Part shown: positions 1,505 through 17,579 of the stretch, one piece after another
Position numbering within the stretch: the stretch's first letter is position 1
Layout: the number at the start of each line of letters is the position of its first letter
Source: Acetomicrobium sp. S15 = DSM 107314
Lineage (GTDB): Bacteria > Synergistota > Synergistia > Synergistales > Thermosynergistaceae
Assembly: GCF_016125955.1 (NCBI RefSeq)
Contig: NZ_JADEVE010000025.1
Coordinates: 1-34,564 of the forward strand
Direction: 5' to 3'
Length of the DNA: 34,564 bases
Made by a program: the position numbers and the translations under genes
The notes under the pieces: generated by a model
The model's input: the letters and a program-made list of their open reading frames with translations, nothing else
Told to the model about the DNA's origin: nothing
Database searches by the model: none

Positions 1505-1555
1505 AATTTTATTTGAGGCATCGTATCCATTTCGACTACATTTTTAAATGAGGCA
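1502..1555 (-). repeat. Right IS end: two copies of the terminal repeat unit
   Basis: Read on the minus strand, the outer copy (1555 to about 1521) starts TGCCTCATTTAAAAA and the inner copy (1520 to about 1502) starts TGCCTCAAATAAAA. They mirror the two copies at the left end. The transposase stop codon (1502-1504) lies within the inner copy. Confidence 0.7.
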
Positions 1556-1651
1556 TCAGGTACCCCGAATCCAAATCCGAGGTTGAAAGAAAATATCACT
1601 CCCGGGGAAGTTTGGCCAACCAACAGACACGAGAATTATTAAAACAAAAGA

Positions 1652-1685
1652 CAAAGGCTGGAGCTGACAGCTGCTCCAGCCTTTG
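1652..1685 (-). terminator. Intrinsic terminator downstream of comB
   Basis: A perfect 13-bp stem (CAAAGGCTGGAGC at 1652-1664 with its complement at 1673-1685) encloses an 8-base loop. On the minus strand it is followed by a T-rich run (TCTTTTGTTTT), as expected for termination of comB transcripts. The plus-strand side has only a weak T-run. Confidence 0.8.
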
Positions 1686-1773
1686 TTAAAACACCGATTA
1701 TTCAAGTCCGTGGCACCAATAGCACTAAGAAATAGCTGTCCACACTTTCGCCATCGGCACGTTTGCACGTTTT

Positions 1774-2502
1774 CTAAAGGAGTACCGTCCAACGTCCACT
1801 TATAAAGGCAAGCTTCGGCACGGAAGCGCTTACTCCTAACTGGCAGGCTAAACGGATATCGTCGCCGAAGCCCAATCCCAAAAGGAAATGCGCGTGAGAC
1901 GCGTCCTTCAACGCTTCTTCCATGTTTTTCCCATAGCTGTGCCAAACGGAATGCGCAATCCTGGCGCCGTCGGAAAATAGGATTTTCGGCTCCTTCTCCA
2001 GCGCAATATCCACTAAGGCGCCTGCGCAGGCCGAATCGTCGAGAGATACCCTGCCGAGCCGACCGGCACAAAGAATCCCAATGGAGCTTCCCGATGATAA
2101 GGCCGCGTCAACTGCGGCAAAGGCATTCCTCGCAGAGGCTATCAATACCGGCGCTCCCGTAGAGGCTGCGGCGAGCAACGCTCTGGTGCCGTTCGTGGTC
2201 GTCATTATCGCCCCTTCATACCTGCTTACACACGCATTCGCCGCTTCCAAAGGAGAATTGCCGAGATCAAAGCCCTGAGGAGGCAATCCTTTTCTTTCTC
2301 CCATCAACAACCATCCGCTTCCAAGTGATTTCTTTAGAGCGAGTCCCTCTTCAACGCTTTCCACAGGCAACATCTTCTTACCGCCGCACTCGAAGAACAC
2401 CGTCATTGTCGTCGTAGCCCGCAGCACATCGACGACAAGCCAAACTTCGCAAGGCGGAAGAGCCTCGGTCGGACTTAAAATCACATCTAATCGCGCGCCC
2501 AT
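1774..2502 (-). CDS. comB: 2-phosphosulfolactate phosphatase (ComB family)
   Basis: The 242-residue protein matches the ComB family, Mg-dependent phosphatases that convert 2-phosphosulfolactate to sulfolactate in coenzyme M synthesis. Many bacteria carry an orphan copy of unproven substrate. Supporting features are the start GARLDVILSPTEA, the segment VDVLRATTTMTVFFECG (about residues 25-41), GERKGLPPQGFDLGNSP, and TTNGTRALLAA followed by CAGRLGRVSLDDSACAGA. I chose ATG 2502 because GCGAGGAG lies 7-8 bases upstream; the frame stays open further upstream into ptsI's leader without a better site. It is divergent from ptsI, with 89 bases between the two start codons, and has its own terminator. 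No other coenzyme M genes are present. Its possible link to the sulfolactate-type locus at 9.7-19 kb is inference only. Confidence 0.85.
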   Translation of the reverse strand: MGARLDVILSPTEALPPCEVWLVVDVLRATTTMTVFFECGGKKMLPVESVEEGLALKKSLGSGWLLMGERKGLPPQGFDLGNSPLEAANACVSRYEGAIMTTTNGTRALLAAASTGAPVLIASARNAFAAVDAALSSGSSIGILCAGRLGRVSLDDSACAGALVDIALEKEPKILFSDGARIAHSVWHSYGKNMEEALKDASHAHFLLGLGFGDDIRLACQLGVSASVPKLAFISGRWTVLL

Positions 2503-2520
2503 GCTTTTATCTCCTCGCAC

Positions 2521-2548
2521 ATTATGGTGAATGTAATTATATTGTAAA
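2521..2548 (-). promoter_or_regulatory. Putative sigma-70 type promoter for comB
   Basis: On the minus strand TTTACA (2548-2543) and CATAAT (2526-2521) are separated by 16 bases. The -10 box ends 18 bases before the comB start codon. This would give a short leader that includes the ribosome-binding site. Confidence 0.4.
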
Positions 2549-2591
2549 ATTGATGGGAGTCGCAGTGCGCAAATGAGGGGGCTGATCCTAC

Positions 2592-4346
2592 ATGGCAGAG
2601 AGGAAGTTGAAAGGCGTTCCCTTGTCATCGGGCGTTGGAATAGGGCGAATCTTGCTTCTCCGCTCCGTCCCATTTGAGACCACGGGCAAGGAAATCGACC
2701 AAGATGAGAGGGTCAAAGAATTAGAGCGCTTCACTGCAGCCCATAAAGAAGCCAAGGAGAGGCTGCTTGCCTTAAAGAAGAACGCCGAAGGCCACCTCCC
2801 CCAAGAAGAGATGGGGATATTAGAAGCACATCTTTTAATGATAGACGATCCGATGCTCATCGGCGGCATAAAAGAACTCATAGCCAAGGGCAAGCTCGCT
2901 CGCGATGCCGTTGTAGAAAAGACCAAAGAACTGAAAGCGAGGCTCGAAAGCCTGCCCGACCCCTACATGAGGGAACGCGCCATAGACATAGAGGATGTCG
3001 GACTAAGGCTTTTTAGAGCTCTTCTCGGCATACCGGAACTCGACTTGTCAGCAACAACAGAACCTATAGTCCTCACTGCTGAAGAGCTAACCCCGTCGGA
3101 AACGGCCGGCCTTAAGCCCGATCGTGTTGCAGCAATAGTGACAGCCCGAGGAGGGGTAACGAGCCATGCTGCCATTATAGCCAAGGCGCTCGGAATACCG
3201 GCAGTCTCAGGCATCTCTACGAAAGAGTTAACGGATCAGACGCTAGCGATAGTTTACGGCGACGTCGGAACGGTAATCTTAAACCCATCCGAAGAGACGA
3301 TCCAGAGGGCAAAGAGACAAATCCAGCGCCTTGCCGCAGAAAAACGGGAACTCGCCTCAATTGCAAAACTTACGGCCGAGACTAAGGATGGCACAAAATT
3401 GGAGCTTTGGGGAAATATCGCCTCACCCGAAGAGGTCGATGATGTAAGGGCATCCGGAGGTACGGGCATAGGGCTATTCAGGACAGAATTCCTTTACATG
3501 GACCGCCCACAACCTCCCACAGAAGAAGAACAGCTCGACGCATATGCAAAAGCCTTAAAGGCGATGGGTGATCGGCCAGTGGTGATACGGACGCTCGACG
3601 TAGGCGGCGACAAAGAGATCCCATACTTATCGATAGAAAAGGAAGGAAACCCTTTCTTGGGTTATCGCGCCATACGGCTATGCCTGGAAAATGAAGAGCT
3701 TTTTTTGACACAACTGCGCGCCCTGCTCCGCTCTTCCGTTTATGGGAAGCTCTGGATCATGTTTCCCATGATTTCGTCCATCTGGGAAGTGCGGCAGGCA
3801 AAGGAGATGCTGGAGAAGGCTAAGATACAACTAAAAAATGAGGGTAAAGGTTTTGATGAAGACATCAAGGTAGGCATAATGATAGAAACTCCGGCGGCAG
3901 CTATCATAAGCAGGGAGTTAGCTGCGGAGGTGGACTTCTTTTCCATAGGCACTAACGACCTTACCCAATATACGTTAGCCGTCGATCGAACCAATCAGAG
4001 GGTAAACCGATGGTTCGACTCATTCCACCCAGCCGTGTTGAGGCTAATCGCCATGACGGCCGAAGGGGCTCATGCACATAACATAGATTTGGGCGTTTGC
4101 GGCGAAATGGCAGGGGAGGAGCTTGCCATCCCCATTTTTGTGGGATTGGGATTCAACGAGCTGTCGATGGCCCCGGCTCGCATTCTATGGCAGAAGCGTA
4201 CATTGCGCGCCACAACGTCAAAGTGGGCCAAAGAGATAACTGCCCAAGCTCTTAAGTTGTCATCCGCGCAGGAGGTGTACGCATTCTTAAAGACCAGCAT
4301 AGATGAGATTATCCCCACGGCCAACCGGGAAAATAGCCCAACTTGA
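2592..4346 (+). CDS. ptsI: Phosphoenolpyruvate-protein phosphotransferase (PTS Enzyme I)
   Basis: Enzyme I takes phosphate from phosphoenolpyruvate on a histidine and passes it to HPr, feeding PTS sugar uptake or PTS-based regulation in the cytoplasm. The 584-residue length is normal. The phospho-histidine site is GGVTSHAAIIAKALGIPAV with His192. The C-terminal PEP-binding barrel shows GIGLFRTEFLYM, RTLDVGGDKEIPY, NPFLGYRAIR, FSIGTNDLTQY and the active cysteine in DLGVCGEMAG. The start ATG 2592 follows a G-rich ribosome-binding site (GAGGGGGCTGATCCT). The 3' end overlaps the convergent prepilin peptidase gene by 38 bases. No HPr or EII gene is visible nearby, so its partners must lie elsewhere. 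Confidence 0.96.
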   Translation: MAERKLKGVPLSSGVGIGRILLLRSVPFETTGKEIDQDERVKELERFTAAHKEAKERLLALKKNAEGHLPQEEMGILEAHLLMIDDPMLIGGIKELIAKGKLARDAVVEKTKELKARLESLPDPYMRERAIDIEDVGLRLFRALLGIPELDLSATTEPIVLTAEELTPSETAGLKPDRVAAIVTARGGVTSHAAIIAKALGIPAVSGISTKELTDQTLAIVYGDVGTVILNPSEETIQRAKRQIQRLAAEKRELASIAKLTAETKDGTKLELWGNIASPEEVDDVRASGGTGIGLFRTEFLYMDRPQPPTEEEQLDAYAKALKAMGDRPVVIRTLDVGGDKEIPYLSIEKEGNPFLGYRAIRLCLENEELFLTQLRALLRSSVYGKLWIMFPMISSIWEVRQAKEMLEKAKIQLKNEGKGFDEDIKVGIMIETPAAAIISRELAAEVDFFSIGTNDLTQYTLAVDRTNQRVNRWFDSFHPAVLRLIAMTAEGAHAHNIDLGVCGEMAGEELAIPIFVGLGFNELSMAPARILWQKRTLRATTSKWAKEITAQALKLSSAQEVYAFLKTSIDEIIPTANRENSPT

Positions 4347-5073
4347 CGATGAGCTGAGGGCCAAAGATGAGCGCCAACACCCCTCCCATCGCCAAAAAAG
4401 GCACAAAAGGGAGGGGGTCCTTCCTCCCCACTTTTTTAAGGGCAAGCAATACCAGGGCTACGCCTCCGCCCGTCAAAAAACCAAAATACAGTGCTAAAGC
4501 CGCCATTTTCCAACCCAACAGTGCACCGAGCCCGGCAGACAGCGTAGCGTCGCCATATCCCATTTTGCCGCGGCTCGCCACTATAATAGCCCCCATGACG
4601 CCCCCACCGAGCGCAGCACCAAAAAGACCATCAACTGCGGCATCGAGGCCGTTTATAACCCTGAAGGCGATGCCCAAAAATCCCATGGCGACGACAAAGC
4701 TGTCATAGACATAGCCGCCGTAAATATCGGTGAGAGAGGACAAAAGCAGCCCATAACCGGAAAGTAGCGCGGTAATCCAAGCCCAAGACACACCGAAACG
4801 CCAGGACGAAAAACCGCCAAAGATTGCACCTATGAGTTCCACAAAAAGATAGCGCCAGCCCAAGAAAGCATCACACCCTCTGCACCGTCCCTTTTGCAAC
4901 AAAAAGGAAGCTATGGGCACGAGTTCCCACGCAGAGAGAACCTTGCCACAGGCATTGCAACGTGAGCGTTCAGCCCCCCACCACCGCTGACCGGAAACGC
5001 TCCTTTCGGCCACCACGTTTAGAAACGACCCCATAGCGGCACCCAAGATCGCGTTTAACGCTACAAAGAGCAT
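4309..5073 (-). CDS. pilD: Type IV prepilin-like leader peptidase / N-methyltransferase
   Basis: This inner-membrane aspartic protease cleaves the leader of type IV prepilins and type II secretion pseudopilins and then methylates the new N terminus. The 254-residue protein has the N-terminal methyltransferase motif GSFLNVVAER and two CxxC pairs (CNAC, then CRGC) forming the zinc-binding cytoplasmic loop. The two catalytic aspartates are in LTDIYGGYVYD and in GYGDATL. Several hydrophobic membrane segments follow. ATG 5073 is preceded by GTGAGG at 8 bases; a TTG one codon earlier is the alternative. Its end overlaps ptsI convergently and no terminator separates them. No pilin genes lie in the window. 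Confidence 0.92.
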   Translation of the reverse strand: MLFVALNAILGAAMGSFLNVVAERSVSGQRWWGAERSRCNACGKVLSAWELVPIASFLLQKGRCRGCDAFLGWRYLFVELIGAIFGGFSSWRFGVSWAWITALLSGYGLLLSSLTDIYGGYVYDSFVVAMGFLGIAFRVINGLDAAVDGLFGAALGGGVMGAIIVASRGKMGYGDATLSAGLGALLGWKMAALALYFGFLTGGGVALVLLALKKVGRKDPLPFVPFLAMGGVLALIFGPQLIVKLGYFPGWPWG

Positions 5074-5093
5074 CAATGTGACCTCACGAAACC

Positions 5094-5122
5094 TTGCACT
5101 TCTCCTTCTTGTATTGTATTAT
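5094..5122 (+). promoter_or_regulatory. Sigma-70 type promoter for the universal stress gene
   Basis: TTGCAC (5094-5099) and TATTAT (5117-5122) are separated by 17 bases. They lie 35 bases upstream of the start codon at 5158, and GGGGAGG sits between. Confidence 0.6.
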
Positions 5123-5157
5123 ATTATCATAAAGAGATCTCAGGGGAGGTGTGTCTT

Positions 5158-5619
5158 ATGACGACAAGAAAGATGCTGACCGCTGTCGATCTCAGCGAGA
5201 TATCCGAACCTCTGGTGATTTACAGCCATTCCATAGCGCACAGATTGGACATCGAGGTAACCTATATCCATGTACTCCCCCATACGGCCGTCTGGCGCGG
5301 ATATGAGCCATGGATCCCTCCCGAAATGGATGCCCAAGTGTGGGAAGTGGCGAGAAAGAAGATGGCCTACTACGTCCGCAAGGCCGAGGAGCTTTTCCCC
5401 AACGAGCCAGAGCATAAGCACGAAATAATAATCAAAGAGGGTTATCCTGCTGACATCATCATTCAAACAGCTAAAGAAGGCAACTATGGCTTGATTGTGG
5501 TCGGCTATAAGGGGCACAGCACCTTGGAACGAATATTAGTTGGCAGCACCGGCGCAGCCGTCGCTCGCCATGCCCCTTGCTCCGTGCTCATATATCGCCC
5601 CGGGTACGAGATTATTTAA
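5158..5619 (+). CDS. Universal stress protein, UspA family
   Basis: A 153-residue single-domain Usp protein, a cytoplasmic stress-associated nucleotide-binding fold. It opens with the usual beta strand (RKMLTAVDLSEISE). It ends with the ATP-binding signature VVGYKGHSTLERILVGST, which fits the family pattern G-2x-G-9x-G-S/T, followed by APCSVLIYRPG. This implies an ATP-binding rather than a UspA-proper type. ATG 5158 is chosen because GGGGAGG lies 8 bases upstream; a GTG at 5149 would overlap that site. It has its own promoter and converges with the hypothetical gene downstream with only 5 bases between them. The specific stress it answers cannot be read from sequence. Confidence 0.93.
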   Translation: MTTRKMLTAVDLSEISEPLVIYSHSIAHRLDIEVTYIHVLPHTAVWRGYEPWIPPEMDAQVWEVARKKMAYYVRKAEELFPNEPEHKHEIIIKEGYPADIIIQTAKEGNYGLIVVGYKGHSTLERILVGSTGAAVARHAPCSVLIYRPGYEII

Positions 5620-5624
5620 GGCCT

Positions 5625-6071
5625 TCAGACGATCAACTTGCCGCTGCCGGGTTTCTTCTTTGCCCCCGTCATCTTGTCGAGCTGCTGCAGGACGGCGGGG
5701 GAAGCTACGTCTATACGCGGCTTCCTTGCATCCTGAGAAGCTAACTCCTGAAGCCTCTTCTCGTATTCATCGATGCTCTTCTTAAGGGCTTTAACGTCGT
5801 TTTTGATCCACTGAAGTATACCATCAGCAGCAGCTTGGACCATATCCGCATTCGGTTCCTCGGCCATGAGGCCCAAATCCTTGAGGAGTTTATACTCGTC
5901 CCTGAGGGCATCGATGATATCCTCATCCGTCAATAAGCCTTTCTTGTACATGGCTCTGGCCAATACGTTGAACTTGGTTTTAACGTTTTCGTCAGAGACG
6001 GTCAGCGCGTCGATGCGAGCCATGATCATAGAAAGCAACTCATCTAAGCTAATTTGCATAGGCACTGGCAT
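5625..6071 (-). CDS. Hypothetical protein, helical, possible coiled coil
   Basis: I do not recognise a family. The 148-residue product has no signal peptide or membrane segment and looks all-helical. The first half contains MARIDALTVSDENVKTKF and KKGLLTDEDIIDALRDEY. The second half has a charged heptad-like stretch (IKNDVKALKKSIDEYEKRL) suited to a coiled coil, then a basic tail KKKPGSGKLIV. Of two near ATG codons I prefer 6071, because AAGGAGG lies 7 bases upstream; the one at 6077 would be only one base from that site. It converges on the universal stress gene. Codon use looks native and the good ribosome-binding site argues that the gene is real. Confidence 0.75.
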   Translation of the reverse strand: MPVPMQISLDELLSMIMARIDALTVSDENVKTKFNVLARAMYKKGLLTDEDIIDALRDEYKLLKDLGLMAEEPNADMVQAAADGILQWIKNDVKALKKSIDEYEKRLQELASQDARKPRIDVASPAVLQQLDKMTGAKKKPGSGKLIV

Positions 6072-6207
6072 GCTCATACCTCCTTGAGACTTGCAGATTC
6101 AACTGCGCCGATGACAAAAGTTCGCACATGGCTTATTCTAACACAAAGGCAAAACTTGTGCTCCGCTCATAATATATCTTGTGCTACGATGATTTTGGAG
6201 GTGTCAG

Positions 6208-7101
6208 ATGCTGGCAGGCATGCAGCTCAAACGACGACTCGTCACCATTAGACGGCTCTTCATGCACGAATGGCAGACGTTCGTCGTAATTACGATAGGG
6301 GCACTGTGCTCCTCAGTTGGCATAATATCGTTGACCATGCCGTTTCGTCTGCCGGATGCAGGCGTATCGGGTCTGGCCGTGCTTTCCAACTACGCTTTTG
6401 GCATATCGCCGGCGTGGATTATAGCTATAGGAAATGTGGGACTTTTATTATGGGGATGGCGGGAACTATCGCCGCGCTTCGTCATTTGGACAGCTTACGG
6501 TGTTGCTGTCGTCTCGGTACTGTTGAAACTTTTAGAATGGCTCCCTGCAATCCCATTAAATGATATGATTTTAGTTTGCGTTTCAGCGGGTGTCATAAAG
6601 GGCCTTGGGGGTGGCTTGGTTTTTCGTGCCGGTGCTTCCCTGGGCGGAACGGACATAATAGTCTCGGTCCTTCGCAAACGTTACGGCATTGAGGTCGGTA
6701 AGTATACCTTTTATATAAACTTGATTATATTGGGCCTTTCTATCGGCGTGGTGGGCTTAGAAAGAGCAATTTTAGGTTTAGTTAGCATTTACGTAAATGG
6801 GCTGGTAACAGATAATGTGCTCCGTTCATTTGACAGAAGAAAGCAGGTATTTATCATAACTAAAGACACACAATTGGTGTGCAGCTTTATTACACAAACA
6901 CTACGTCGTGGCGTTACGATCTTGCACGGCGAAGGCGGATATACCAAACAAGTTCGCCCAGTGATCTTTTGTCTCCTCACCGCGCGCCAGACGATGGAGT
7001 TGAAACGCTTCCTTGCCCAAAATGACCCAAGGGCGTTCATGGTCATTTCAGACGCTGCAGAGGTGGTGGGCGAAGGCTTCAAGCGTTGGAGCGCCCTTTA
7101 G
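6208..7101 (+). CDS. YitT-family membrane protein (DUF2179 C-terminal domain)
   Basis: The 297-residue protein has the YitT architecture. About five membrane segments occupy roughly residues 20-205, including the glycine-rich motif KGLGGGLVFRAGASLGGTDIIVSVLRK typical of the family (shown here by its key GGGL and SLGGTDI parts). A C-terminal soluble DUF2179 domain follows (QVFIITKDTQLVCSFITQ, then RGVTILHGEGGYT). The family's transport or signalling role is not established. The start ATG 6208 follows GGAGG at 6 bases. It is a single gene flanked by the divergent hypothetical gene and by a long inverted repeat at its 3' side. Confidence 0.88.
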   Translation: MLAGMQLKRRLVTIRRLFMHEWQTFVVITIGALCSSVGIISLTMPFRLPDAGVSGLAVLSNYAFGISPAWIIAIGNVGLLLWGWRELSPRFVIWTAYGVAVVSVLLKLLEWLPAIPLNDMILVCVSAGVIKGLGGGLVFRAGASLGGTDIIVSVLRKRYGIEVGKYTFYINLIILGLSIGVVGLERAILGLVSIYVNGLVTDNVLRSFDRRKQVFIITKDTQLVCSFITQTLRRGVTILHGEGGYTKQVRPVIFCLLTARQTMELKRFLAQNDPRAFMVISDAAEVVGEGFKRWSAL

Positions 7102-7167
7102 CCATAATGCTATATTTTCAGGGCCATAGCAACCTCGCCCATGCTGACTCTTCCATTGCAACTACAG

Positions 7168-7222
7168 TTTGGCTCGGGACTCCACAGCACGATCTTGGCC
7201 AGCCGCGTGAGCCCGAGCCAAA
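7168..7222. terminator. Long inverted repeat between convergent genes, possible bidirectional terminator
   Basis: TTTGGCTCGGG (7168-7178) is repeated as a perfect inverted copy at 7212-7222. The 33-base interior has a further short pair (CACG with CGTG). It lies between the YitT gene (+) and the exporter gene (-) where a terminator is expected. No clear T-run follows on either strand, so it may instead be a structured RNA. Confidence 0.45.
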
Positions 7223-7263
7223 ACCGAAGGGCCAACCACTTTAGGGAATGATGCACTCCTCTT

Positions 7264-8256
7264 TTATGACCAAATATAATAATTCATAAAATAACTACTT
7301 ATTGCAATTAGTGAAGCAATCGAAAAACCCAACACGAAAGGGGTCCACCCCAATTTTTTAAGGTCCGCAATTTTTACGCTCAAGCCAATGCCGGAAAGCG
7401 CAAGCACTATTAAGAATTTAGCGGCCGCAACCAGGTACGAACTCGCCGCAGGGGTCAACAACCCAATGCTGTTTATTAGACTTACGAGCAGAAACCCGAG
7501 GATGAAGGTAGGAAAGACATCTACAACCCTGACTTTCTCGCCCGCCGTCTTCCTGTTGCGCCGATAAAAATACCCTACTGAAAAGATTACCGGCACCATC
7601 ATGACATTGCGAGTAAGCTTAATGATCGTCGCTATCCTGCCGCTTTCTTCGCTGTAGGCGAACCCGGCAGCTACTACCTGAGAGGTGTCGTATACGCCTG
7701 TGCCAACCCAAGCCCCAAAGTGAAGGTCAGCCATGTGAAGCGCAAACCCAACCAAAGGAAACACAAATACGGCAAGAACTCCAAAAAGGGTTACTATGCC
7801 TACTGCCATGACTATTTCTTCCTCTTCGGCATCAATGAGTGGGGCTGTGGTAACAATGGCAGTGTTGCCGCAAATGGATAAACCTACTGCAATCAAGAGT
7901 TTTTTCCTTAAAGAAACTTTAAAAACATCGCCAAGAAGAAATGTTAAAATGAAGGCCAACACAATAACAGAAATAACCACAATCAGGCCCTTGCCTCCGA
8001 TTTTTAATAATTCTGCAAAGCTAACTTCAGCTCCAAGCAGGATGATCGCGATCTTTAAGAATTTATTAAGCCCTAATTTAACACCAGGTCCAAAAATTTT
8101 ACTATTCAAATTGAACATATTATTGATAATTATACCAAGTAGCACAGCAATAAAAACCCTGCCGATATAGTTAGGCAGCATTTCTGCTAAAAACGTAGAA
8201 ACAACTGATATAACTAATAAAAGCGCAACGCCAGGGATATAACTCTTTAATGTCAT
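7264..8256 (-). CDS. Putative sulfate exporter, PSE/YeiH (UPF0324) family
   Basis: The 330-residue protein is almost entirely hydrophobic, with about ten membrane segments. It carries family hallmarks: LGIIINN near residue 40, IILLGAEVSF, GLSICGNTAIVTTAPLIDA in the middle, and GTGVYDTSQVVAAGFAYSE. This family (transporter class 2.A.98) includes exporters encoded beside sulfonate-degradation genes, such as TauZ and SuyZ, for which sulfate or sulfite export has been proposed. ATG 8256 follows GAGGTGG at 5 bases. It sits downstream of the two CHR-type genes on the same strand, in a stretch visibly richer in A and T than its neighbours. The 219 bases upstream are AT-rich without a clear promoter match. 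The link to the SuyAB-like locus is inference. Confidence 0.85.
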   Translation of the reverse strand: MTLKSYIPGVALLLVISVVSTFLAEMLPNYIGRVFIAVLLGIIINNMFNLNSKIFGPGVKLGLNKFLKIAIILLGAEVSFAELLKIGGKGLIVVISVIVLAFILTFLLGDVFKVSLRKKLLIAVGLSICGNTAIVTTAPLIDAEEEEIVMAVGIVTLFGVLAVFVFPLVGFALHMADLHFGAWVGTGVYDTSQVVAAGFAYSEESGRIATIIKLTRNVMMVPVIFSVGYFYRRNRKTAGEKVRVVDVFPTFILGFLLVSLINSIGLLTPAASSYLVAAAKFLIVLALSGIGLSVKIADLKKLGWTPFVLGFSIASLIAISSYFMNYYIWS

Positions 8257-8475
8257 GTAGACCACCTCAATTATAATGATATTCTTAGATCAAACTCAAC
8301 ATAGCTACTTTTATCTTATTAGAACAGCCATAAATAATCAATATAGTGCAAAGTCTTTATTAACTCTCTTCCAAAAAAACTAATGAAAAATTTGGCATTA
8401 ACATTATATGATCTTCAAGAGATATGCCAAGTGTGCTTTCAATAGAAAATGCGAATTCTTAAGTCAAATTTTGGG

Positions 8476-8997
8476 TTAGCGATATATCAAAATGCCGACC
8501 ATCGCTGCAAGCGCAATTGACAATATCGGGTCTAACTTGAAACGCTTTATGAGTAGAAACGTGACAACAGCTATCAGGACTCCAGCCACATCGGTGATCG
8601 AGGACGGAACGATCATTACTGTAGCTGCTAAAATAAGAGACACGACGACGGGACGAATGCCATTAAACATAGCCTTAACTAAAGCGAGGTCACGATATTT
8701 CAAAAACAACCTCGTTAAGATCAATATAACTATTACAGGAGGGAGCACGACACCTGTCGTAGCGATAAGCGACCCAACCAAACCCGCGACCTTGTACCCT
8801 ACAAATGTAGCGGCGTTAATGGCAACCGGGCCAGGAGTAACCTGAGAAATTGCGACGATGTCTATAAACTGATCCATCGTAAGCCAATTATGTAACGACA
8901 CAATCTCCCTCTGAATGAGCGGGAGTATCGCGTAGCCACCGCCAAAACCGAATAAGCCAACTTTGAAAAAGCTAAATAGAAGTTGCAAAAGTTGCAC
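8476..8997 (-). CDS. CHR-family (chromate transporter) half-size membrane protein
   Basis: This 173-residue single-domain CHR protein shows the hallmark FFKVGLFGFGGGYAILPLIQ near its N terminus, then VAISQVTPGPVAINAATFVGYK and an NGIRPVV segment. CHR proteins are oxyanion transporters, best known for chromate efflux with sulfate as an analogue. Half-size forms occur as adjacent pairs that work together, as with the next gene upstream. The start is probably GTG 8997, immediately after a stop codon in frame; the ribosome-binding site is weak. The physiological substrate is unknown. Next to a sulfate-exporter-family gene, sulfate or sulfite is conceivable. Confidence 0.88.
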   Translation of the reverse strand: MQLLQLLFSFFKVGLFGFGGGYAILPLIQREIVSLHNWLTMDQFIDIVAISQVTPGPVAINAATFVGYKVAGLVGSLIATTGVVLPPVIVILILTRLFLKYRDLALVKAMFNGIRPVVVSLILAATVMIVPSSITDVAGVLIAVVTFLLIKRFKLDPILSIALAAMVGILIYR

Positions 8998-9050
8998 TTA
9001 GTGCGCCAAATTACGGCTTCCCTCACACTCTTAGCTTGTATGATACCTTC

Positions 9051-9647
9051 TTAATTTTCAGCTTTATTTCTTTCTTCTTTCTCTTCCTTAGCTGGCCTGA
9101 TAAAGAATCCCGCTATCCCTGCAAGGAGTATGACTACTATTGGGTGAATATGGGCAATTGTCAAGCCTGTAAATGCGGCGGCTGCCAAAATAACGGCAAC
9201 TTTGTCAGATATCGCCGTTTTTCCTGCTTCAAACGCCGCCTCTGCCATAAGCGCTACAATGGCTGGACGCATTCCAGACATAGCAGCCCTGACTATTGGG
9301 TTATTTTGAACCCCGAGGAAAATTGACGCTATGATTATTATAGACACAAAAGAAGGCAATGCTGCGGCTATCACGGACGATGCAGCGCCACTGAAGTCCG
9401 CCAACTTGTAACCTGTTATGGCTGCCATATTGATAGCCATCGGTCCAGGCGCGCTTTGAGCTATGGCTATAGCGTCTATAAATTCGCCCTCCTCCATCCA
9501 CTGCCACTTCTCTACGATAGCCCTCCGAATGAGAGGAATCATAGCATACCCTCCGCCAAAGGTGAAAGCACCAATAGGGAGGAATATTTTAAAGAGTTTT
9601 AAAGGGGTTACTTGCAGTGCGTCAGCTTGCAACTTAGAAGTTGGCAT
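9051..9647 (-). CDS. CHR-family (chromate transporter) half-size membrane protein, second of pair
   Basis: A 198-residue protein with the same layout as its downstream partner: FLPIGAFTFGGGYAMIPLIRR, AIAQSAPGPMAINMAAITGYK and SGMRPAIVALMAE, followed by membrane segments and a short charged tail. ATG 9647 has GGAGG 9 bases upstream, so this gene is probably translated first and the partner follows 53 bases downstream. Two antiparallel half-size CHR proteins usually form one functional transporter. That pairing is known for the family and inferred here. Confidence 0.9.
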   Translation of the reverse strand: MPTSKLQADALQVTPLKLFKIFLPIGAFTFGGGYAMIPLIRRAIVEKWQWMEEGEFIDAIAIAQSAPGPMAINMAAITGYKLADFSGAASSVIAAALPSFVSIIIIASIFLGVQNNPIVRAAMSGMRPAIVALMAEAAFEAGKTAISDKVAVILAAAAFTGLTIAHIHPIVVILLAGIAGFFIRPAKEEKEERNKAEN

Positions 9648-9741
9648 TATAATGATCCTCCGCCTGATTCAAAACTCACATCGGCAACAGCAACTTTATG
9701 ACTCTACTTTCTGGCATGTTCGTAACGACTTAATAATACAA

Positions 9742-10695
9742 TCATACCGGATTTAAAGGAAGACCACTCTTGAGGACGGAGATGACATTTTGAACAGCCA
9801 TCATCCCCATCTTGTCCGTAGCCTTATCTGTAGACCCTCCCATATGGGGTGTAACGATCACGTTGGACAAAGCGAATAGCGGATGATCCGCGGGAGGCGG
9901 CTCCACATCGAAGACATCTACGGCGGCGCCGCTCAGCTGCCCAGATTTGAGTGCTTCCACCAAGGCCTCTGTGTCCACCACAGATGCCCTGGAAGTATTT
10001 ATCAAGTAACTGCCCCGTTTCATGATCGAAAAGGCACGGCGGCCGATGAGTCTATTCGTATTGACCCCTCCCGGCAAATGAAGTGAAATTACATCGCTCG
10101 TCGCCATGAGTTCATCCAAGGAAAGGAGGTTTGTGTTTAAACTCTCAGCTTCATAAGAGCGATCTGTGATGTCGAAGGCGACAACTTTCATGTCGAATGC
10201 GAGGGCGCGTTTGGCCACAGCCTGACCGATGCGCCCAAAACCCACTATGCCAAGTTGTCTCCCAGAAAGTTCGACCCCCAATATGTTAGGAAATTCTCCC
10301 ATCCTGGTCTTCTGGTCGGCCTCGGTGATCTTCCTCAATAGAGCGATCATCAAACCAAGGGCGAGCTCCGCCACCGCCTCCACATTTGCTCCCGGCGTTA
10401 TTGTCACCGCAATACCACGTCTCCTTGCGGCATCGACATCTACACGGTCGTAGCCGACGCCAAAGCGCGCTATAACCTTGAGCTTAGGTGCTGCGTCGAG
10501 CACTCGCTCGGTAATCCGCTCGTTGCCCAAAATAACGGCGTCTGCATCACCTATTAACTGGACGAGTTCTTCCTCCGATAAGACCCTTCCTTCAAATGGA
10601 TTAGGCAGAATTGTCAGGCCCGCTTTAACAAGGCACTCCATGGGTTCAGGAGAATATCTTCCGAACATCTTTGACGTTATAAGCACGTTAGACAC
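9742..10695 (-). CDS. D-isomer 2-hydroxyacid dehydrogenase, SlcC/SerA-like
   Basis: This 317-residue NAD-dependent dehydrogenase oxidises or reduces a 2-hydroxyacid/2-oxoacid pair. The nucleotide-binding motif is GIVGFGRIG (residues 149-157). The catalytic set is Arg236 (NTSRASVVD), Glu265 (FDVEPPP) and His284 (TPHMGGST). There is no ACT-type serine-feedback domain, unlike long biosynthetic SerA. I chose GTG 10695 because GGAGG lies 8 bases upstream; the longer frame to 10737 would start inside the tctA end. It is the last gene of the TTT-transporter operon, 22 bases after tctA. (S)-sulfolactate dehydrogenase SlcC belongs to this family and sits in sulfolactate loci, so that role is attractive, but other hydroxyacids are possible. 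Confidence 0.85.
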   Translation of the reverse strand: MSNVLITSKMFGRYSPEPMECLVKAGLTILPNPFEGRVLSEEELVQLIGDADAVILGNERITERVLDAAPKLKVIARFGVGYDRVDVDAARRRGIAVTITPGANVEAVAELALGLMIALLRKITEADQKTRMGEFPNILGVELSGRQLGIVGFGRIGQAVAKRALAFDMKVVAFDITDRSYEAESLNTNLLSLDELMATSDVISLHLPGGVNTNRLIGRRAFSIMKRGSYLINTSRASVVDTEALVEALKSGQLSGAAVDVFDVEPPPADHPLFALSNVIVTPHMGGSTDKATDKMGMMAVQNVISVLKSGLPLNPV

Positions 10696-10717
10696 CGAGC
10701 ATTCCTCCAGATGATTT

Positions 10718-12226
10718 TTAGATTTCTTCCCGTGCATCGCCCGAAATCTCTTTGGGGAGCTTACGAGACTGCAGCCATGTAAATAAAGCCACGACCACCG
10801 ATAACAGCAGGAAGGCCAGCGCTATGGGCCGCTGTACCAAAATGGTCCAGCTACCGCCAGAAAGTATCAAAGAACGACGCAACGACGCCTCCGCCATAGG
10901 GCCAAGAATAAGGGCTAAAAGCAATGGCGTGACTGAAAACCCCAACATCGGGAGAATGTAACCGATTACTCCGAATATCAGCATCAATAAAACGTCAAAC
11001 AGGCTGTTGTTCACAGCATATGCCCCAACTATGGAAAAGACGCCGATGGCCGGCAAAAGATAGTAGCGCGGTACCCCGACAGCCAGAGAAAATATGCGGA
11101 TAAAATATCTGCCGAGGAGCAACATGATAATATTCACAGCCAGAAACCCTATCATCACAACATAAACATATTCCCCATGCCGCTCGAAAAGTAGGGGGCC
11201 CGGAGTTAGTCCTTGGATCATCAAGGCGCCCAAAAGCACGGCGGTCACCGAGTCACCGGGTATGCCAAGCGTCATTAGAGGGATAAGAGCTCCACCGCAC
11301 ACGGCGTTATTCCCCGATTCAGAGGCAGCCACTCCATCGAGTTCGCCGGTCCCAAAGCGCTCCGGGTGCTTAGAGCTACGCCTTGCCTCTGTGTAACTCA
11401 AAAAAGACGCTATCGCGGCACCAGTGCCAGGAATAGCACCGATGCCCGTTCCTATCAGGCCACTCTTTATAATTGTCTTAGCATGATTCAAGAGCAATTT
11501 TAGATCAAAACGCGATCGCTTCACGGCCTCCGCACTGATATGCAACTCTTGTTGCACCTGCTGTAATATCTCGCCTATTGCGAAGAGTCCTATCAACACA
11601 GGTACAAGAGGAATCCCGGCGGTCAAGGCATCAATGCCAAAGGTAAAGCGAGGAAGTGCCTCGAGAGGATCAAGACCGATGGCGGAGACTATAAGGCCGA
11701 GGGCTGCTACCATGAGACCTTTCACCAGATTTTTGCTCGCCACTCCAGCTACGCACGCCGTCAGACCGAAAACAGCCAGAGCGAAGGTCTCAGGAGGGCC
11801 GAAGCGCAGGGCAAAGGCAGCGATAACTGGAGCCACAACCAAAAGTATGGAACCGCTGATCACGCCGCCTATGACCGAAGCCCACAGGGCCATAGAAAGA
11901 GCTTCATATGCCTTACCCTGGCGCGCCAGAGGATAACCGTCCAAGACTGTGGCAGCAGAGGCCGGCGTCCCAGGCACTCCTACCAGTATGGCCGATATGG
12001 AACCTCCATAGATTCCACCCGCATATACCCCTAATAAAAACAACATGCCAGTGTCCGCGGACATTTTGAATGTGAAGGGAAGCATCACCGCAACTGCCAT
12101 GGTGGCAGTTAGACCTGGCAAAGCTCCCACCACCATCCCTAAGGACACGCCCAATGCCATCAGGGTGAGGTTTTGAAATTGAAAGATTGCACCCACAGAA
12201 TGGGCTATGTATTCAAATTCTAACAT
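10718..12226 (-). CDS. tctA: Tripartite tricarboxylate transporter large permease, TctA family
   Basis: This 502-residue integral membrane protein is the large permease of a TTT carrier, which takes up carboxylates using a periplasmic binding protein and an ion gradient. It shows family signatures GVSLGMVVGALPGLTATMAV (residues 26-45), YAGGIYGGSISAILVGVPGTPAS and GTGIGAIPGTGAAIASFLSY, with about twelve membrane segments. ATG 12226 follows GAGGTGG. It lies between TctB and the 2-hydroxyacid dehydrogenase on the same strand. In Chromohalobacter a TTT system (SlcHFG) sits in the sulfolactate locus; that analogy is the reason to suspect a sulfonated substrate here. Confidence 0.95.
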   Translation of the reverse strand: MLEFEYIAHSVGAIFQFQNLTLMALGVSLGMVVGALPGLTATMAVAVMLPFTFKMSADTGMLFLLGVYAGGIYGGSISAILVGVPGTPASAATVLDGYPLARQGKAYEALSMALWASVIGGVISGSILLVVAPVIAAFALRFGPPETFALAVFGLTACVAGVASKNLVKGLMVAALGLIVSAIGLDPLEALPRFTFGIDALTAGIPLVPVLIGLFAIGEILQQVQQELHISAEAVKRSRFDLKLLLNHAKTIIKSGLIGTGIGAIPGTGAAIASFLSYTEARRSSKHPERFGTGELDGVAASESGNNAVCGGALIPLMTLGIPGDSVTAVLLGALMIQGLTPGPLLFERHGEYVYVVMIGFLAVNIIMLLLGRYFIRIFSLAVGVPRYYLLPAIGVFSIVGAYAVNNSLFDVLLMLIFGVIGYILPMLGFSVTPLLLALILGPMAEASLRRSLILSGGSWTILVQRPIALAFLLLSVVVALFTWLQSRKLPKEISGDAREEI

Positions 12227-12254
12227 TTACGCCACCTCACTATCATACATAGGG

Positions 12255-12716
12255 CTAAGGAAGCACCACGCCCAAAACCCATCTGAACGAATAAGTCACG
12301 CTGAGGTCGAGGATCGAGGCAAAAAGGGCTATCTGCCACCACTTTCTGGCCCCCAAAAAGAAGGCTCCAATTACGAGGAACAAAAATGTGCTCAGCTCGA
12401 AGCCAATGATGCCCATTAACAAGTAATACAGAAAGAAGTTAACGAGCATAAACAGAAAGCGACGCAAGTTTAAAAATAGTGCCGTAGGCCTAAGGTTTTC
12501 GCCTTCGCGCAGTTTCTTCAACCACAAAAACGAGCTCTTGATCAAAAGTATTAAACTGAAGATCCCAAGGGCGATAGTCATGGTGTAAGGGAAATATTCC
12601 GGTCCCATGCCGCTCGCCATTGGACTTTCCATCACTTGGCTTGGAATTAAAAACCACAGTAAAACACTCAGCACTAAAGCAATAGAAGCATTTATGACAT
12701 CTGTCTTAGGGTTCAT
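12255..12716 (-). CDS. tctB: Tripartite tricarboxylate transporter small permease, TctB family
   Basis: A 153-residue membrane protein with four hydrophobic segments and the conserved MGPEYFPYTM near residue 40, a TctB signature. It completes the TTT carrier with TctA, whose start is 28 bases downstream, and TctC. ATG 12716 has GGAGG 7 bases upstream; a TTG one codon earlier is less likely. The binding-protein gene tctC is unusually separated from it by a sulfatase and its maturase, which implies that the enzymes and transporter serve one substrate. Confidence 0.9.
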   Translation of the reverse strand: MNPKTDVINASIALVLSVLLWFLIPSQVMESPMASGMGPEYFPYTMTIALGIFSLILLIKSSFLWLKKLREGENLRPTALFLNLRRFLFMLVNFFLYYLLMGIIGFELSTFLFLVIGAFFLGARKWWQIALFASILDLSVTYSFRWVLGVVLP

Positions 12717-12734
12717 CAATGATCCTCCTTAAAA

Positions 12735-12759
12735 CAGGCAGGCCGTTTTGGCCTACCTG
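12735..12759 (-). other. Intercistronic hairpin between sulfatase and tctB
   Basis: CAGGCAGGCC and GGCCTACCTG pair around a GTTTT loop with one mismatch. It lies after the sulfatase stop codon and just before the tctB ribosome-binding site. With no T-run it is more likely an mRNA processing or stability element than a full terminator. Confidence 0.5.
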
Positions 12760-12834
12760 CATCGCTTTTGATCAAAGAGAGCTTGTAGTCCCCTTAAACA
12801 AAAGTCCCATATTCTGCTTTGCAACCCCAGATCT

Positions 12835-14265
12835 CTACCCCCACCTGAGTTGCTGCGACCGGGAGCGATAGTTGCTTCGAATTAACCAATTTAGCATTAT
12901 CTGCATCAGCGCCTCTTTTCGGTCTGCGTAGCGCGGATCGTCCCACAGGTTGTTGAGCTCCTTGGGGTCGTTTTTCAAATCGAACAGTTGCCCGAAGGGT
13001 TCATCCAAGAAGTGAACCAACTTCCAATCTTTGGTCCTGACCATCGTCATAAATTCCGTTTCCTGTAAAATTGCGTCGCGGCTATGTTCGGCGAAAACAC
13101 ACTTATGCCCTTCGGTATTTCTGCCTTCCAAAGCCGGTACGAGGGACTCGGCCTCCATATTTGCAGGAATCTGAAGGCCTGCTAATTGCAAGATGGTTGC
13201 TCCTATATCTATTTGGCTATAGAGATTATCCAAACGCTGCCCTCCATCGAAACGCCCCGGAGACCAGATGATCGTCGGAACCTTAAGTATTTCGTCGTAC
13301 ATGGTCCACTTTTGTATATGACCATGATCTCCCAAACAATCCCCATGATCTGAAGTAAAAATCACCACCGCATTTTCCAAATAACCCTTTGCCTCAAGAG
13401 CTTGTAAGATCTCACCGATCTTCTCATCAATCATCGTCACATTGGCCAAATAGTACGCCCTCAAACGATGAAGTTGCTCCCGAGAAGGGTTCAACGAGAA
13501 AACAACTGAATCATGATCGATTTGTGAATTATGCTTCCGCAAAGCGAGAAACGGGGGCGGTTGGCTGGATAGATCTTTCTCGGATACTACAGGAATGGGC
13601 AAGTCTTTTTTCAAATAGGGTTCTGCATATCTAAAAGGAGGGTCATATGGCGGATGGGGACCAGGAAAGCCGATTTGCAAAAACAGGGGTGTGGTTTCGG
13701 GATAGCGATCGATCCACCACGTGGCCATACCACCCACAAACATGTCGGGATGCATATCTTCCGGCAATTCCCATTCAAATGCACCCATTCGCTCCCTATA
13801 ATCTTTTAGGTTTCGATACATTACGCGTCCAGGTTTCGGCAGACCTCTCGCGTGCAGAGCTTTGTCCCACTCGTCAAAAAAATATCTTCCTTCCAGATAA
13901 CGATCTTTGTTTTCCACCACGTAGCGCTCGTGGAAACCGTAGGGAGCCTGATAGGGGTAAGTGTGCATCTTGCCGATGTTTACACAGTGATATCCGCTTT
14001 TCGCCAAATCCTCTACCCAAGTTCGAGGCCATTCATCTGCGTTTTTAAAGACGCCGGCAGAGTGAGGATAACCTCCCGTAAACAGGGCAGCACGAGATGG
14101 CGCACAAGAAGGCGCGGCGCAAAAACAATTATTCAGAGCTACCCCCTCTTTGACGAGGCGATCCAGATTAGGCGTATCCATGTAGGGAAATCCCAATGCT
14201 TGAATGGTGTCGAAGCGCTGTTGATCGGTCATGATTAAAATTATGTTGGGACGATCATTCGGCAT
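12835..14265 (-). CDS. Cys-type formylglycine sulfatase, cytosolic
   Basis: The 476-residue enzyme belongs to the type I sulfatases, which hydrolyse sulfate esters using a formylglycine made from an active-site cysteine. The modification motif CAPSR is at residues 54-58, the metal-binding TDQQ at 13-16 and the second metal region FTSDHGDCLGDHG in the C-terminal half. There is no signal peptide (MPNDRPNIILIM), so it acts in the cytoplasm on an imported substrate. Because the site is Cys-type, an anaerobic radical-SAM maturase is required or an aerobic enzyme elsewhere; the maturase is the gene directly upstream. ATG 14265 follows AAGGAGT. It is encoded inside a TTT transporter operon next to a SuyAB-like lyase, so its ester is probably a small organic acid sulfate. 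The substrate is not determinable from sequence. Confidence 0.9.
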   Translation of the reverse strand: MPNDRPNIILIMTDQQRFDTIQALGFPYMDTPNLDRLVKEGVALNNCFCAAPSCAPSRAALFTGGYPHSAGVFKNADEWPRTWVEDLAKSGYHCVNIGKMHTYPYQAPYGFHERYVVENKDRYLEGRYFFDEWDKALHARGLPKPGRVMYRNLKDYRERMGAFEWELPEDMHPDMFVGGMATWWIDRYPETTPLFLQIGFPGPHPPYDPPFRYAEPYLKKDLPIPVVSEKDLSSQPPPFLALRKHNSQIDHDSVVFSLNPSREQLHRLRAYYLANVTMIDEKIGEILQALEAKGYLENAVVIFTSDHGDCLGDHGHIQKWTMYDEILKVPTIIWSPGRFDGGQRLDNLYSQIDIGATILQLAGLQIPANMEAESLVPALEGRNTEGHKCVFAEHSRDAILQETEFMTMVRTKDWKLVHFLDEPFGQLFDLKNDPKELNNLWDDPRYADRKEALMQIMLNWLIRSNYRSRSQQLRWG

Positions 14266-14338
14266 TTCATTACTCCTTTCTTATTTAAAAATTGTTTTTC
14301 CACTATTTCGCTTTCAACATAAATCCTTCTGCTCGTAT

Positions 14339-15601
14339 CTATGGTTGTCTTTCCTGGCAACACTTTTTATACTTCTTGCCACTCCCACACGGGCAAGGGT
14401 CGTTGCGCCCCGTGTTCTTCCAAATGGAGCTATACAATCCTCGCATCTCCTCTTGGATAAAGAGGGGCGATCGCTTCTGCCTTATCATTTGGGCAATCTC
14501 TCGCATAAACACAGCAGTATAGTTAAAAAACTGTTTATACCCGGCGCATAGATAGTTTAAGCCACCCTCGCCATTTGGCGTTTTTAAAAAGCGGTCTTTT
14601 GGACAGCCACCATTGCAGATAAAGCGCACGTCGCAATCACGGCAATACCGTGGCAAGGCATCTCGCTTATTCTGACCGAACTTCTTCTGCTTGGGCGATT
14701 CGACCATGTCGATGAGGGCCTCTTCTCGAATGTTGCCCAACCTATACTCAAGAGAGACAAAATGGTCGCAGGAATACAGATCACCGTTATGCTCCATAAC
14801 CATGGCTCTGCCACAGGTTTCACCAAGGGTGCAAAGGGCAGGACCAACTCCCATCCAAAGCCCAACGCATTCCTCAAACATCCGAACAAAAACCCGACCG
14901 ATGTCGTTTTTAACCCACTCGTCGAAAACAGCAATCAAAAAGCGGCCGTAATCTTCAGCCCTTACGGTGCGAGGGCTCACTTTCACATCTTCCATGTGTT
15001 CTACTATGGGAATGAATTGAATATACCGCACGCCTTCGTCCTTGAAGAAGTGGTAGATCTCAAGTGGGTGCATAGTATTTAAATTATTAACAGTACATAG
15101 GACATTGCATTTTACTCCATGTCCTTGCAGCAAATGGAGCCCACTAAGAACCCGTTTGTGCGTTGAGCGCCCTTCCTTATCGGATCGGTATGAGTCGTGT
15201 AATTCCGCCGGACCATCTATGCTAATGCCTACGAGGAAATCGTTTTCCCTGAAAAAATCGCACCATTCGTCGTTTAACAAGATGCCGTTGGTTTGAAATG
15301 CGTTTTCTATCCGCCAGCCTTCCGGTACATACTTATTTTGCAGTTCGACGGCCCTTTTAAAAAAATCTATCCCCCTCAAGGTGGGTTCGCCCCCTTGCCA
15401 TGCGAAGGAAACGACAGGGCCGGGCTGATATTGAATGTATTGCCGGATGAAATCCTCTAAGAGCTCCTCGCTCATCCTAAAATTTTTCTCTTGTGGATAT
15501 AGATGTTTTTTCTCTAAATAAAAGCAATAGTTGCAGGACAAGTTGCAAATAGGGCCGATAGGCTTAGCCATGACATGAAATGGCGAGGTGGCGTTTTTCA
15601 T
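14339..15601 (-). CDS. Anaerobic sulfatase-maturating enzyme (radical SAM) with SEC-C tail
   Basis: This enzyme oxidises the sulfatase cysteine to formylglycine without oxygen. The 420-residue protein starts FHVMAKPIGPICN and has the radical-SAM cluster cysteines at 19, 23 and 26 (CNLSCNYC). A SPASM-type region holds two more Fe-S clusters (CTLGETC, CDHF, CRDCDVRFICNGGCPKDRF). A C-terminal zinc-binding SEC-C motif follows (GRNDPCPCGSGKKYKKCC). I chose ATG 15601, which gives the usual family N terminus; a GTG four codons earlier is possible. It lies immediately upstream of the Cys-type sulfatase in the same operon, the standard pairing, and 106 bases after the strong hairpin following tctC. 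Confidence 0.93.
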   Translation of the reverse strand: MKNATSPFHVMAKPIGPICNLSCNYCFYLEKKHLYPQEKNFRMSEELLEDFIRQYIQYQPGPVVSFAWQGGEPTLRGIDFFKRAVELQNKYVPEGWRIENAFQTNGILLNDEWCDFFRENDFLVGISIDGPAELHDSYRSDKEGRSTHKRVLSGLHLLQGHGVKCNVLCTVNNLNTMHPLEIYHFFKDEGVRYIQFIPIVEHMEDVKVSPRTVRAEDYGRFLIAVFDEWVKNDIGRVFVRMFEECVGLWMGVGPALCTLGETCGRAMVMEHNGDLYSCDHFVSLEYRLGNIREEALIDMVESPKQKKFGQNKRDALPRYCRDCDVRFICNGGCPKDRFLKTPNGEGGLNYLCAGYKQFFNYTAVFMREIAQMIRQKRSPLFIQEEMRGLYSSIWKNTGRNDPCPCGSGKKYKKCCQERQP

Positions 15602-15706
15602 CTTACCAATCACCCATCTTTAAATGAATAAACCGCTTTAAGCATTTGTTATCTATGTATCATTAAACTATATCATCTAATAGAACATGACTGATCTTTT
15701 TGTTGT

Positions 15707-15767
15707 ATACAGGCAGGTCTGTTGCCAAAGCCTAAGGCGCAACGATCCGACCCAGACCTGCCTGTAT
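15707..15767 (-). terminator. Strong hairpin after tctC, partial terminator or mRNA stabiliser
   Basis: A perfect 15-bp stem (ATACAGGCAGGTCTG at 15707-15721 with its inverse at 15753-15767) encloses a loop that holds a second short stem (GTTGC with GCAAC). It begins 6 bases after the tctC stop codon. No long T-run follows on the minus strand, so it probably protects the tctC message and limits read-through into the maturase-sulfatase-permease part. Confidence 0.65.
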
Positions 15768-15773
15768 TGCTGG

Positions 15774-16751: not shown

Positions 16752-16792
16752 AATCCTTCATCTCCTTTCTTTTGCTTCACCTCGTTGAGCAA

Positions 16793-17506
16793 TCACGCCA
16801 TTTGATCCTGCGTCCTCAAGTAAGAAACTATCACCTCCCTCGCTTCCTTCACGTGACACTTGGCCGCATTATCTGCGCCAATGGAGTCCCTGCGCTTTAT
16901 CGCTTGGTATATCTGCTCATGTTGCTGTATCGACCGCTGCGGCCTGCCCGAAAGCGAAGCGGATGTCGCCATTAAGAGCCGCACCTGACTCTGGAGTTTC
17001 TTCAGCGCCTCCAAGAGGCGGATGTTACGGCTCGCCTCTGCTATTGCACTATGAAATAGTATATCAACATCGGAATAACGTTTAACCTCGCCACTTGCTA
17101 TGCACAGTTTGCCATCGTTAAGGTATCCTGCTATCTTAGCGAGTTGATCTTCTGTTGCCATTGTAGCCGCCTTAGCCGCAGCCAATCCCTCGAGGACCTC
17201 ACGTAGCTCGTAAATCTCCACTACATCTGAAATTGTAAGGAGTGCCACATAAGCACCCTTGCGGGGAATAATTTGCACCAAACCTTCTCCTGCAAGCTTC
17301 ACTAATGCCTCCTTCACGGGCGTGTAGCTTATACCCAATCGCTGAGCTAAATCGCGCACTAAAAGCTTTGAGCCAGGTTGCAGGGTTTTGGATACAATAG
17401 CATCGTGGATAGCTTCGTAAGCCATATCAGCTAAACGCGGTGCGTTTGAAAAATTCTCAAGCTGAACGTCGACTTTCTCTATTTTTTGCCGCTTATAACC
17501 TAACAT
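16793..17506 (-). CDS. GntR-family transcriptional regulator (FadR-like, FCD domain)
   Basis: A 237-residue regulator with a winged helix-turn-helix at about residues 25-90 (YEAIHDAIVSKTLQPGSKL, LAQRLGISYTPVKEALVKL, GLVQIIPRKGAYV). A helical FCD ligand-binding domain follows (YELREVLEGLAAAKAA, then DILFHSAIAEASRN). FCD regulators sense small organic acids and usually repress their own operon. It sits within the minus-strand locus, 73 bases after suyB and 41 bases before tctC, so it probably controls the sulfo-lyase and transporter genes. ATG 17506 is preceded only by a loose GAAAGAG. Effector and direction of control are unknown. Confidence 0.9.
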   Translation of the reverse strand: MLGYKRQKIEKVDVQLENFSNAPRLADMAYEAIHDAIVSKTLQPGSKLLVRDLAQRLGISYTPVKEALVKLAGEGLVQIIPRKGAYVALLTISDVVEIYELREVLEGLAAAKAATMATEDQLAKIAGYLNDGKLCIASGEVKRYSDVDILFHSAIAEASRNIRLLEALKKLQSQVRLLMATSASLSGRPQRSIQQHEQIYQAIKRRDSIGADNAAKCHVKEAREVIVSYLRTQDQMA

Positions 17507-17579
17507 TCACGTTCACTCTTTCTCGTTTGAAATTCTTTTACAAAGCAATGGCTTACATTAAAATTTCAGGTATTCCGAC

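Follow-up and report, generated by a model that had tools for sequence, protein, structure and literature searches.

A predicted SuyZ-like sulfite exporter and a foreign-looking CHR pair in a sulfolactate locus of a Synergistota bacterium

Results

The window, by which we mean the whole 34,564-nt stretch of DNA analysed, is contig C25 of the source genome G000 (Acetomicrobium sp. S15; 2.44 Mb in 438 contigs, 99.87% complete), and it holds a sulfolactate locus whose genes all lie on the minus strand in the list of open reading frames. Read downstream, this locus begins with suyA (18731–19051), a reading frame that overlaps suyB and is assigned to the small subunit, and with suyB itself (17580–18749), assigned by identity and by a SuyB tree to the large subunit of (R)-sulfolactate sulfo-lyase. 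There follow a GntR/FCD regulator (16793–17506; PF07729, PF00392), the solute-binding protein TctC (15774–16751; PF03401, 199 bits), the anaerobic sulfatase-maturating radical SAM enzyme anSME (14339–15613; TIGR03942, 507.9 bits, cut-off 349.45), a type I sulfatase with a CAPSR motif (12835–14265; PF00884, 161 bits), and the small permease TctB (12255–12719; PF07331, 65 bits) and large permease TctA (10718–12226; PF01970, 501 bits) of a tripartite tricarboxylate transporter (TTT). Next comes an SlcC-like D-2-hydroxyacid dehydrogenase, a candidate (S)-sulfolactate dehydrogenase (9742–10737; PF02826 and PF00389). By eye, the sulfatase shows no signal sequence at its N terminus, which would place its product in the cytoplasm. 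As the only PF00884 gene found in the genome, it hints, in this stretch shared with anSME (12835–15613), at a substrate that bears a sulfate ester as well as a sulfonate.

Beyond the dehydrogenase lie, in order, genes for two half-size CHR proteins, CHR1 (9051–9647; 198 aa) and CHR2 (8476–8997; 173 aa), and for a PSE-family transporter (7264–8265; 333 aa; PF03601, YeiH/SuyZ-like) that we propose to be an exporter of sulfite and perhaps also of sulfate. Gaps of 94, 53 and 210 nt separate the dehydrogenase gene from CHR1, CHR1 from CHR2, and CHR2 from PSE. The first-pass annotation had described a PSE gene and a half-size CHR pair immediately downstream of the sulfonate genes on the same strand, and the reading frames lie exactly where it placed them; the AT-richness that it also noted is real but modest (42.2% GC in PSE, 45.4% and 46.7% in the CHR genes, 48.6% across the window). 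The lowest-GC 1-kb bins reach 38–39%, and the 210-nt gap is among them. The only PSE, CHR and PF00884 sulfatase genes that whole-genome searches found in the source genome all sit in this locus. Elsewhere in the window, 20553–29951 holds a second acid-catabolism block, with a tartrate-dehydrogenase-type enzyme and two PEP mutase/ICL-family proteins, to which we add three assignments made by eye: an epimerase-like reading frame, genes of a TRAP-like transporter and a LeuCD-like pair.

Two promoter-like sites stand out on the minus strand: TTGGCA-16-TATAAT (8403–8430; 11/12 matches), which precedes the PSE gene by 138 nt, and TTGACA-16-TAGAAT (19101–19128; 11/12 matches), 50 nt ahead of suyA. 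They are the only two sites of this quality within 7000–19400 (12.4 kb), against a mean of 0.175 in shuffled sequence (n = 40); because the AT-rich gap favours chance sites and so inflates this count, we take the PSE site as a hint only. Its place inside the 210-nt gap means that PSE may form a separate transcription unit, which suggests that its expression can be independent, and gap and site together argue against simple co-transcription.

We then asked what the lyase is. Its large subunit is 57–61% identical to the best 13 plasmid-borne matches, and the next match drops to ~40% and is UxaA-type. The group above this gap includes the Cupriavidus pinatubonensis copy, which adjoins hpsN and hpsO, a Paracoccus suyB followed by a gene annotated ‘putative sulfate exporter’ (PSE), and a Rhodobacteraceae suyB whose neighbours are hisD-annotated, SDR, Ldh and PSE genes. 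In the SuyB tree, the window protein falls inside the clade with sulfonate neighbours, on a branch apart from UxaA/GarD-type proteins with a support of 100, and groups with two Anaerolineae suyAB loci (L092 and L114; SH-aLRT 89); the two other GD_AH_C loci fetched from the source genome fall with UxaA-type proteins. These sequence comparisons identify the lyase upstream as a genuine SuyB. NCBIfam returned galactarate dehydratase alone, at 151.5 bits against a cut-off of 730.85, and a PDB sequence search likewise gave galactarate dehydratase as its sole match; we rejected an altronate or galactarate dehydratase identity on the strength of the 57–61% clade and its sulfonate neighbours. Across 185 Synergistota genomes, the source genome included, there was no second suyB of this clade; the best other match reached 44%, and the sulfolactate locus is thus unusual for its phylum. 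A separate observation concerns G137:C48, where two GD_AH_C genes with identical scores (3850–4575 and 9009–9734) are separated by some 5 kb, which points either to a recent duplication or to an artefact of assembly.

To place the locus among its relatives, we read 80 suyAB loci, the best 80 of 588 relatives confirmed in a profile scan of named genomes; this sample leans toward close relatives of the window, and some of its flanks are short. Within these best 80 of 588, a SuyA homologue accompanies suyB in 78 loci, an SlcC-like gene occurs in 27, TctC in 15, TctA in 9, a sulfatase homologue in 5 and anSME in 3. PSE is found in 17 (16 whole genes and one broken); the fetched flanks of the remaining 63, several of them short, contain none, and none of the five sulfatase-bearing loci is among the 17 with PSE. 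A search for TauE gave two weak matches across the same best 80 of 588. Sulfatase and anSME also adjoin suyAB in L124 (17246–20252) and L133 (13839–16973), and anSME without a sulfatase does so in L111 (about 11100).

Whole-genome searches of 50 of these 80 suyAB genomes recovered 46 PSE matches, spread over 30 genomes. Thirteen of the 50 have a PSE inside the fetched suyAB locus, as against 0.22 expected from chance placement of the 46 matches, and PSE is therefore, by this count of gene neighbourhoods, a genuine partner of suyAB, though not an invariable one. A search of 185 Synergistota genomes for PSE gave 57 matches in 52 of them; we read 40 of these loci, one per genome and leaving out that of the window, and found neither a suyB nor a CHR homologue in any of the 40.

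The window PSE matches PF03601 at 241.3 bits (cut-off 24.5), with residues 11–312 of 333 covering positions 1–303 of 304 in the profile. It scores below the cut-off of the YeiH subfamily model TIGR00698 in NCBIfam (144.6 bits, cut-off 232.6), which is why we call it SuyZ/YeiH-like rather than YeiH. In a tree of 81 PSEs, it joins two suyAB-adjacent Anaerolineae PSEs with support of 89/86, a placement that is not starred and involves a long branch; the same group also holds one PSE without such linkage, whose genome is that of a gammaproteobacterial bin, and the other Synergistota PSEs are placed elsewhere. There is thus moderate support for grouping the window PSE with suyAB-linked Anaerolineae PSEs and not with those of the 40 other Synergistota loci. 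Its identity is 38–40% to the nearest relatives and 27–29% to two alphaproteobacterial suyAB-linked PSEs. The tree data are consistent with suyAB and PSE having come from a similar source, although they are not proof of it.

The AlphaFold model of PSE (pLDDT 88.8) shows a CPA/CitS-type transporter fold with broken helices. It superposes on the Na+/H+ antiporter NapA with a Z of 15.8 and an rmsd of 3.6 over 260 residues, and the best Foldseek match is CitS (E 2.4e-4); PDB sequence searches with PSE and with CHR2 gave no match. The modelled fold is compatible with an elevator-type mechanism of secondary transport, in agreement with the account of YeiH in PMC12880088.

Both CHR proteins contain the full PF02417 profile (1–166; 178.2 bits for CHR2 and 165.5 for CHR1, cut-off 28.6), and are 37% identical to each other. 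They score below TIGR00937 (119.4 and 103.5 bits, cut-off 171.7) and below the NCBIfam equivalogs ChrA/ChrB (117.1 and 107.2 bits, cut-off 250). Family membership is therefore certain for PSE and CHR alike, while finer names are not.

The closest kin of the pair lie outside the phylum. CHR2 is about 44–45% identical to its best Synergistota matches and 78, 73, 70, 69 and 68% identical to its best matches in a sample of 398 genomes of Bacillota, the phylum of Moorella. The Bacillota pair of L272 has the same gene order and is 70% (CHR1) and 77% (CHR2) identical in protein; at the DNA level, the window and L272 agree at 71% over 1,110 bases, with the alignment ending inside the CHR pair. This kinship makes the pair look like a horizontally acquired, Bacillota-type mobile two-gene module. 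A comparison of window positions 2500–22400 with the DNA of the same-genus genome G174 gave just three matches of 65–112 bases, so no empty site can be read there. Near the contig end, a 477-aa reading frame (71–1504) is transposase-like by eye and matches no Pfam family; a 78-base stretch running up to and into its start (10–87) is 83% like positions 845–768 of the Bacillota contig L278, a likeness that suggests a mobile element.

Homologue and profile searches found no CHR in the best 80 of 588 suyAB loci. CHR genes are common all the same, occurring in 157 of 185 Synergistota genomes, and 294 of 398 Bacillota genomes have a CHR2 homologue; we accordingly rejected a Synergistota-wide link between CHR and sulfonates. 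Twenty Bacillota CHR loci contained no PSE, TTT, sulfatase or clade SuyB, and one of the 20 has a UxaA-type pair and an SlcC-like gene. Annotated flanks of the Bacillota pairs include SpoIID, tRNA synthetase, RibD and ABC_ATPase genes among others, whereas the window pair lies inside a sulfolactate locus. Within Synergistota, sulfatase and TTT homologues occur together in one (L252) of 34 distinct CHR loci read, L205 and L252 being one place that we counted once, and the close CHR relatives L243 and L244 lie in loci with branched-chain amino-acid-type ABC transporter genes. L252 itself (746–9559) carries genes for ATP-sulfurylase, PAPS reductase, TctA and two sulfatases. A CHR pair runs towards them in convergent orientation, and one of its two halves covers part of the profile only. 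Co-occurrence does not support membership of the CHR pair in the sulfolactate pathway; its position in the cluster and its standing as the sole CHR of the genome make some sulfur role possible. Cargo beyond chromate has come up for this family before: PMC12628692 describes one CHR protein tested as a candidate transporter of dissolved inorganic carbon.

Discussion

The source genome, 99.87% complete, has no siroheme sulfite reductase domain (PF01077), which 11 of 14 control genomes do have, and the sulfite derived from SuyAB would consequently need another exit. We propose that sulfolactate would enter through TctABC, be processed by the SlcC-like dehydrogenase, and be split by SuyAB into pyruvate and sulfite. 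PSE, by its fold an elevator-type secondary transporter, would then export the sulfite, with a membrane gradient as driving force, and might carry sulfate released by the sulfatase too; we infer its substrate, direction and coupling ion, and its co-regulation with the locus. The horizontally acquired CHR pair would have been inserted between the slcC and PSE genes. PSE thus probably provides the step by which sulfite leaves the cell in sulfolactate catabolism, as an exporter of the SuyZ/YeiH kind. Two papers bear on the substrate: in PMC12880088, YeiH, itself a PSE, appears as the main sulfite-resistance factor of Salmonella, its deletion causing greater sulfite sensitivity than deletion of its regulator, and in PMC11582611 sulfite is argued to be a likelier export substrate of SuyZ than sulfate.

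The first-pass annotation had supposed that the whole block exports the oxyanions released by the lyase and the sulfatase. For PSE this idea has held up: linkage (17 of the best 80 of 588 suyAB loci; 13 of 50 genomes against 0.22), tree position, absence of PF01077 and the role of YeiH all favour it. For the CHR pair it has not, as CHR genes are missing from the best 80 of 588 suyAB loci and from the 40 Synergistota PSE loci, and the near kin of the pair in Bacillota have housekeeping genes for neighbours.

One could nevertheless take PSE and the CHR pair as dedicated exporters both, one for the sulfite produced by SuyAB and one for the sulfate freed by the sulfatase. We found no PSE or CHR genes in the genome other than those directly behind the locus on its own strand, the predicted products of the enzymes encoded there include two distinct sulfur oxyanions, the sulfatase product would, from the missing N-terminal signal, be cytoplasmic, and the L252 pair adjoins sulfatases, ATP-sulfurylase and a TTT transporter. 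We nonetheless think such a division of labour unlikely, given the CHR counts of 0/80 (best 80 of 588 suyAB loci) and 0/40 (Synergistota PSE loci), the single Synergistota CHR locus in 34 with sulfatase and TTT, the 20 Bacillota CHR loci free of PSE, TTT, sulfatase and clade SuyB, and the sheer frequency of CHR in Synergistota (157/185). A more specific proposal, that a foreign half-size CHR pair was recruited into a locus for sulfolactate plus sulfate esters as a second sulfur-oxyanion exporter beside the SuyZ-like PSE, strikes us as rather improbable. If it were true, a bacterium without siroheme sulfite reductase would dispose of sulfite and sulfate separately, and half-size CHR pairs, which are common in anaerobes, would gain a natural substrate other than chromate.

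PSE might instead export sulfate, which either the sulfatase or the oxidation of sulfite would supply. SuyZ was first named a sulfate exporter (Rein et al. 2005, as cited in PMC11582611), and the locus does encode a sulfatase together with its anSME; yet PMC11582611 itself holds sulfite to be the likelier substrate, yeiH mutants are sulfite-sensitive according to PMC12880088, and the five sulfatase-bearing loci among the best 80 of 588 have no PSE, making sulfate as the cargo quite unlikely. That PSE and CHR are general stress or housekeeping transporters there by chance would suit the promoter-like site of PSE, the foreign CHR pair that is free-standing in Bacillota and the 40 Synergistota PSE loci away from suyAB, but is hard to reconcile with the enrichment of PSE beside suyAB (13/50 against 0.22) and its tree position, and we regard it as a poor bet. 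A TauE-family protein could also compete with PSE as the sulfite exporter: TauE/SafE (TSUP) proteins, which belong to PF01925 and not PF03601, offer an alternative exit, one of them is proposed for another SuyAB pathway in PMC12421959, and the source genome has one TauE-family gene, on another contig and hence outside the sulfolactate locus.

If PSE is the sulfite exit, as we favour, then the exporter itself is SuyZ-like and rather ordinary, and it is the host that is unusual; the PSE part of the interpretation has good support and belongs to a known kind. What is new is the host phylum, the absent siroheme sulfite reductase, the separate promoter-like site of PSE and the CHR pair's foreign kinship; among the papers searched, none matched Synergistota together with sulfolactate. 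Sulfolactate is a widespread sulfonate of plants and algae, and a Synergistota bacterium that combines a SuyZ-like exporter with a complete-looking SuyAB locus and lacks siroheme sulfite reductase would release sulfite that feeds sulfite respirers in anaerobic communities. The CHR pair, for its part, would be a clean test case for the cargo of half-size CHR proteins.

Among known systems, the nearest in kind is SuyZ of Paracoccus (PSE family, TCDB 2.A.98), likewise a PF03601 transporter encoded beside suyAB, and the window PSE gene shares strand and cluster with a clade-confirmed suyAB, as expected of a SuyZ. In P. ferrooxidans, however, the SuyZ gene directly follows suyB, whereas the window PSE gene lies about 9 kb from suyB, behind the TTT, sulfatase, anSME, dehydrogenase and CHR genes; the two proteins are 27% identical and fall in different parts of the tree. 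YeiH of Salmonella and E. coli belongs to the same Pfam family (E. coli YeiH is about 30% identical) and has a demonstrated role in sulfite resistance (PMC12880088), but the window PSE has no adjoining LysR gene of the YeiE/FinR type, its nearest regulator being GntR/FCD. The CHR pair has its counterparts in the half-size pairs of Bacillota (TCDB 2.A.51).

The best tree neighbours of the window PSE, those of the Anaerolineae loci L092 and L114, also lie beside suyAB; unlike the window, these loci are without CHR genes, and no sulfatase, anSME or TTT homologue was found in them. The Anaerolineae loci with neighbouring PSE and SuyB carry a GH31 gene, as sulfoquinovose loci do, GH31 being the family of sulfoquinovosidases. 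L114 (634–11391; Anaerolineales) reads suyAB, PSE, LarA-like, M24, AFOR, MFS and GH31, and its LarA-like protein, from the lactate racemase family, is a candidate sulfolactate racemase that would replace SlcC/ComC.
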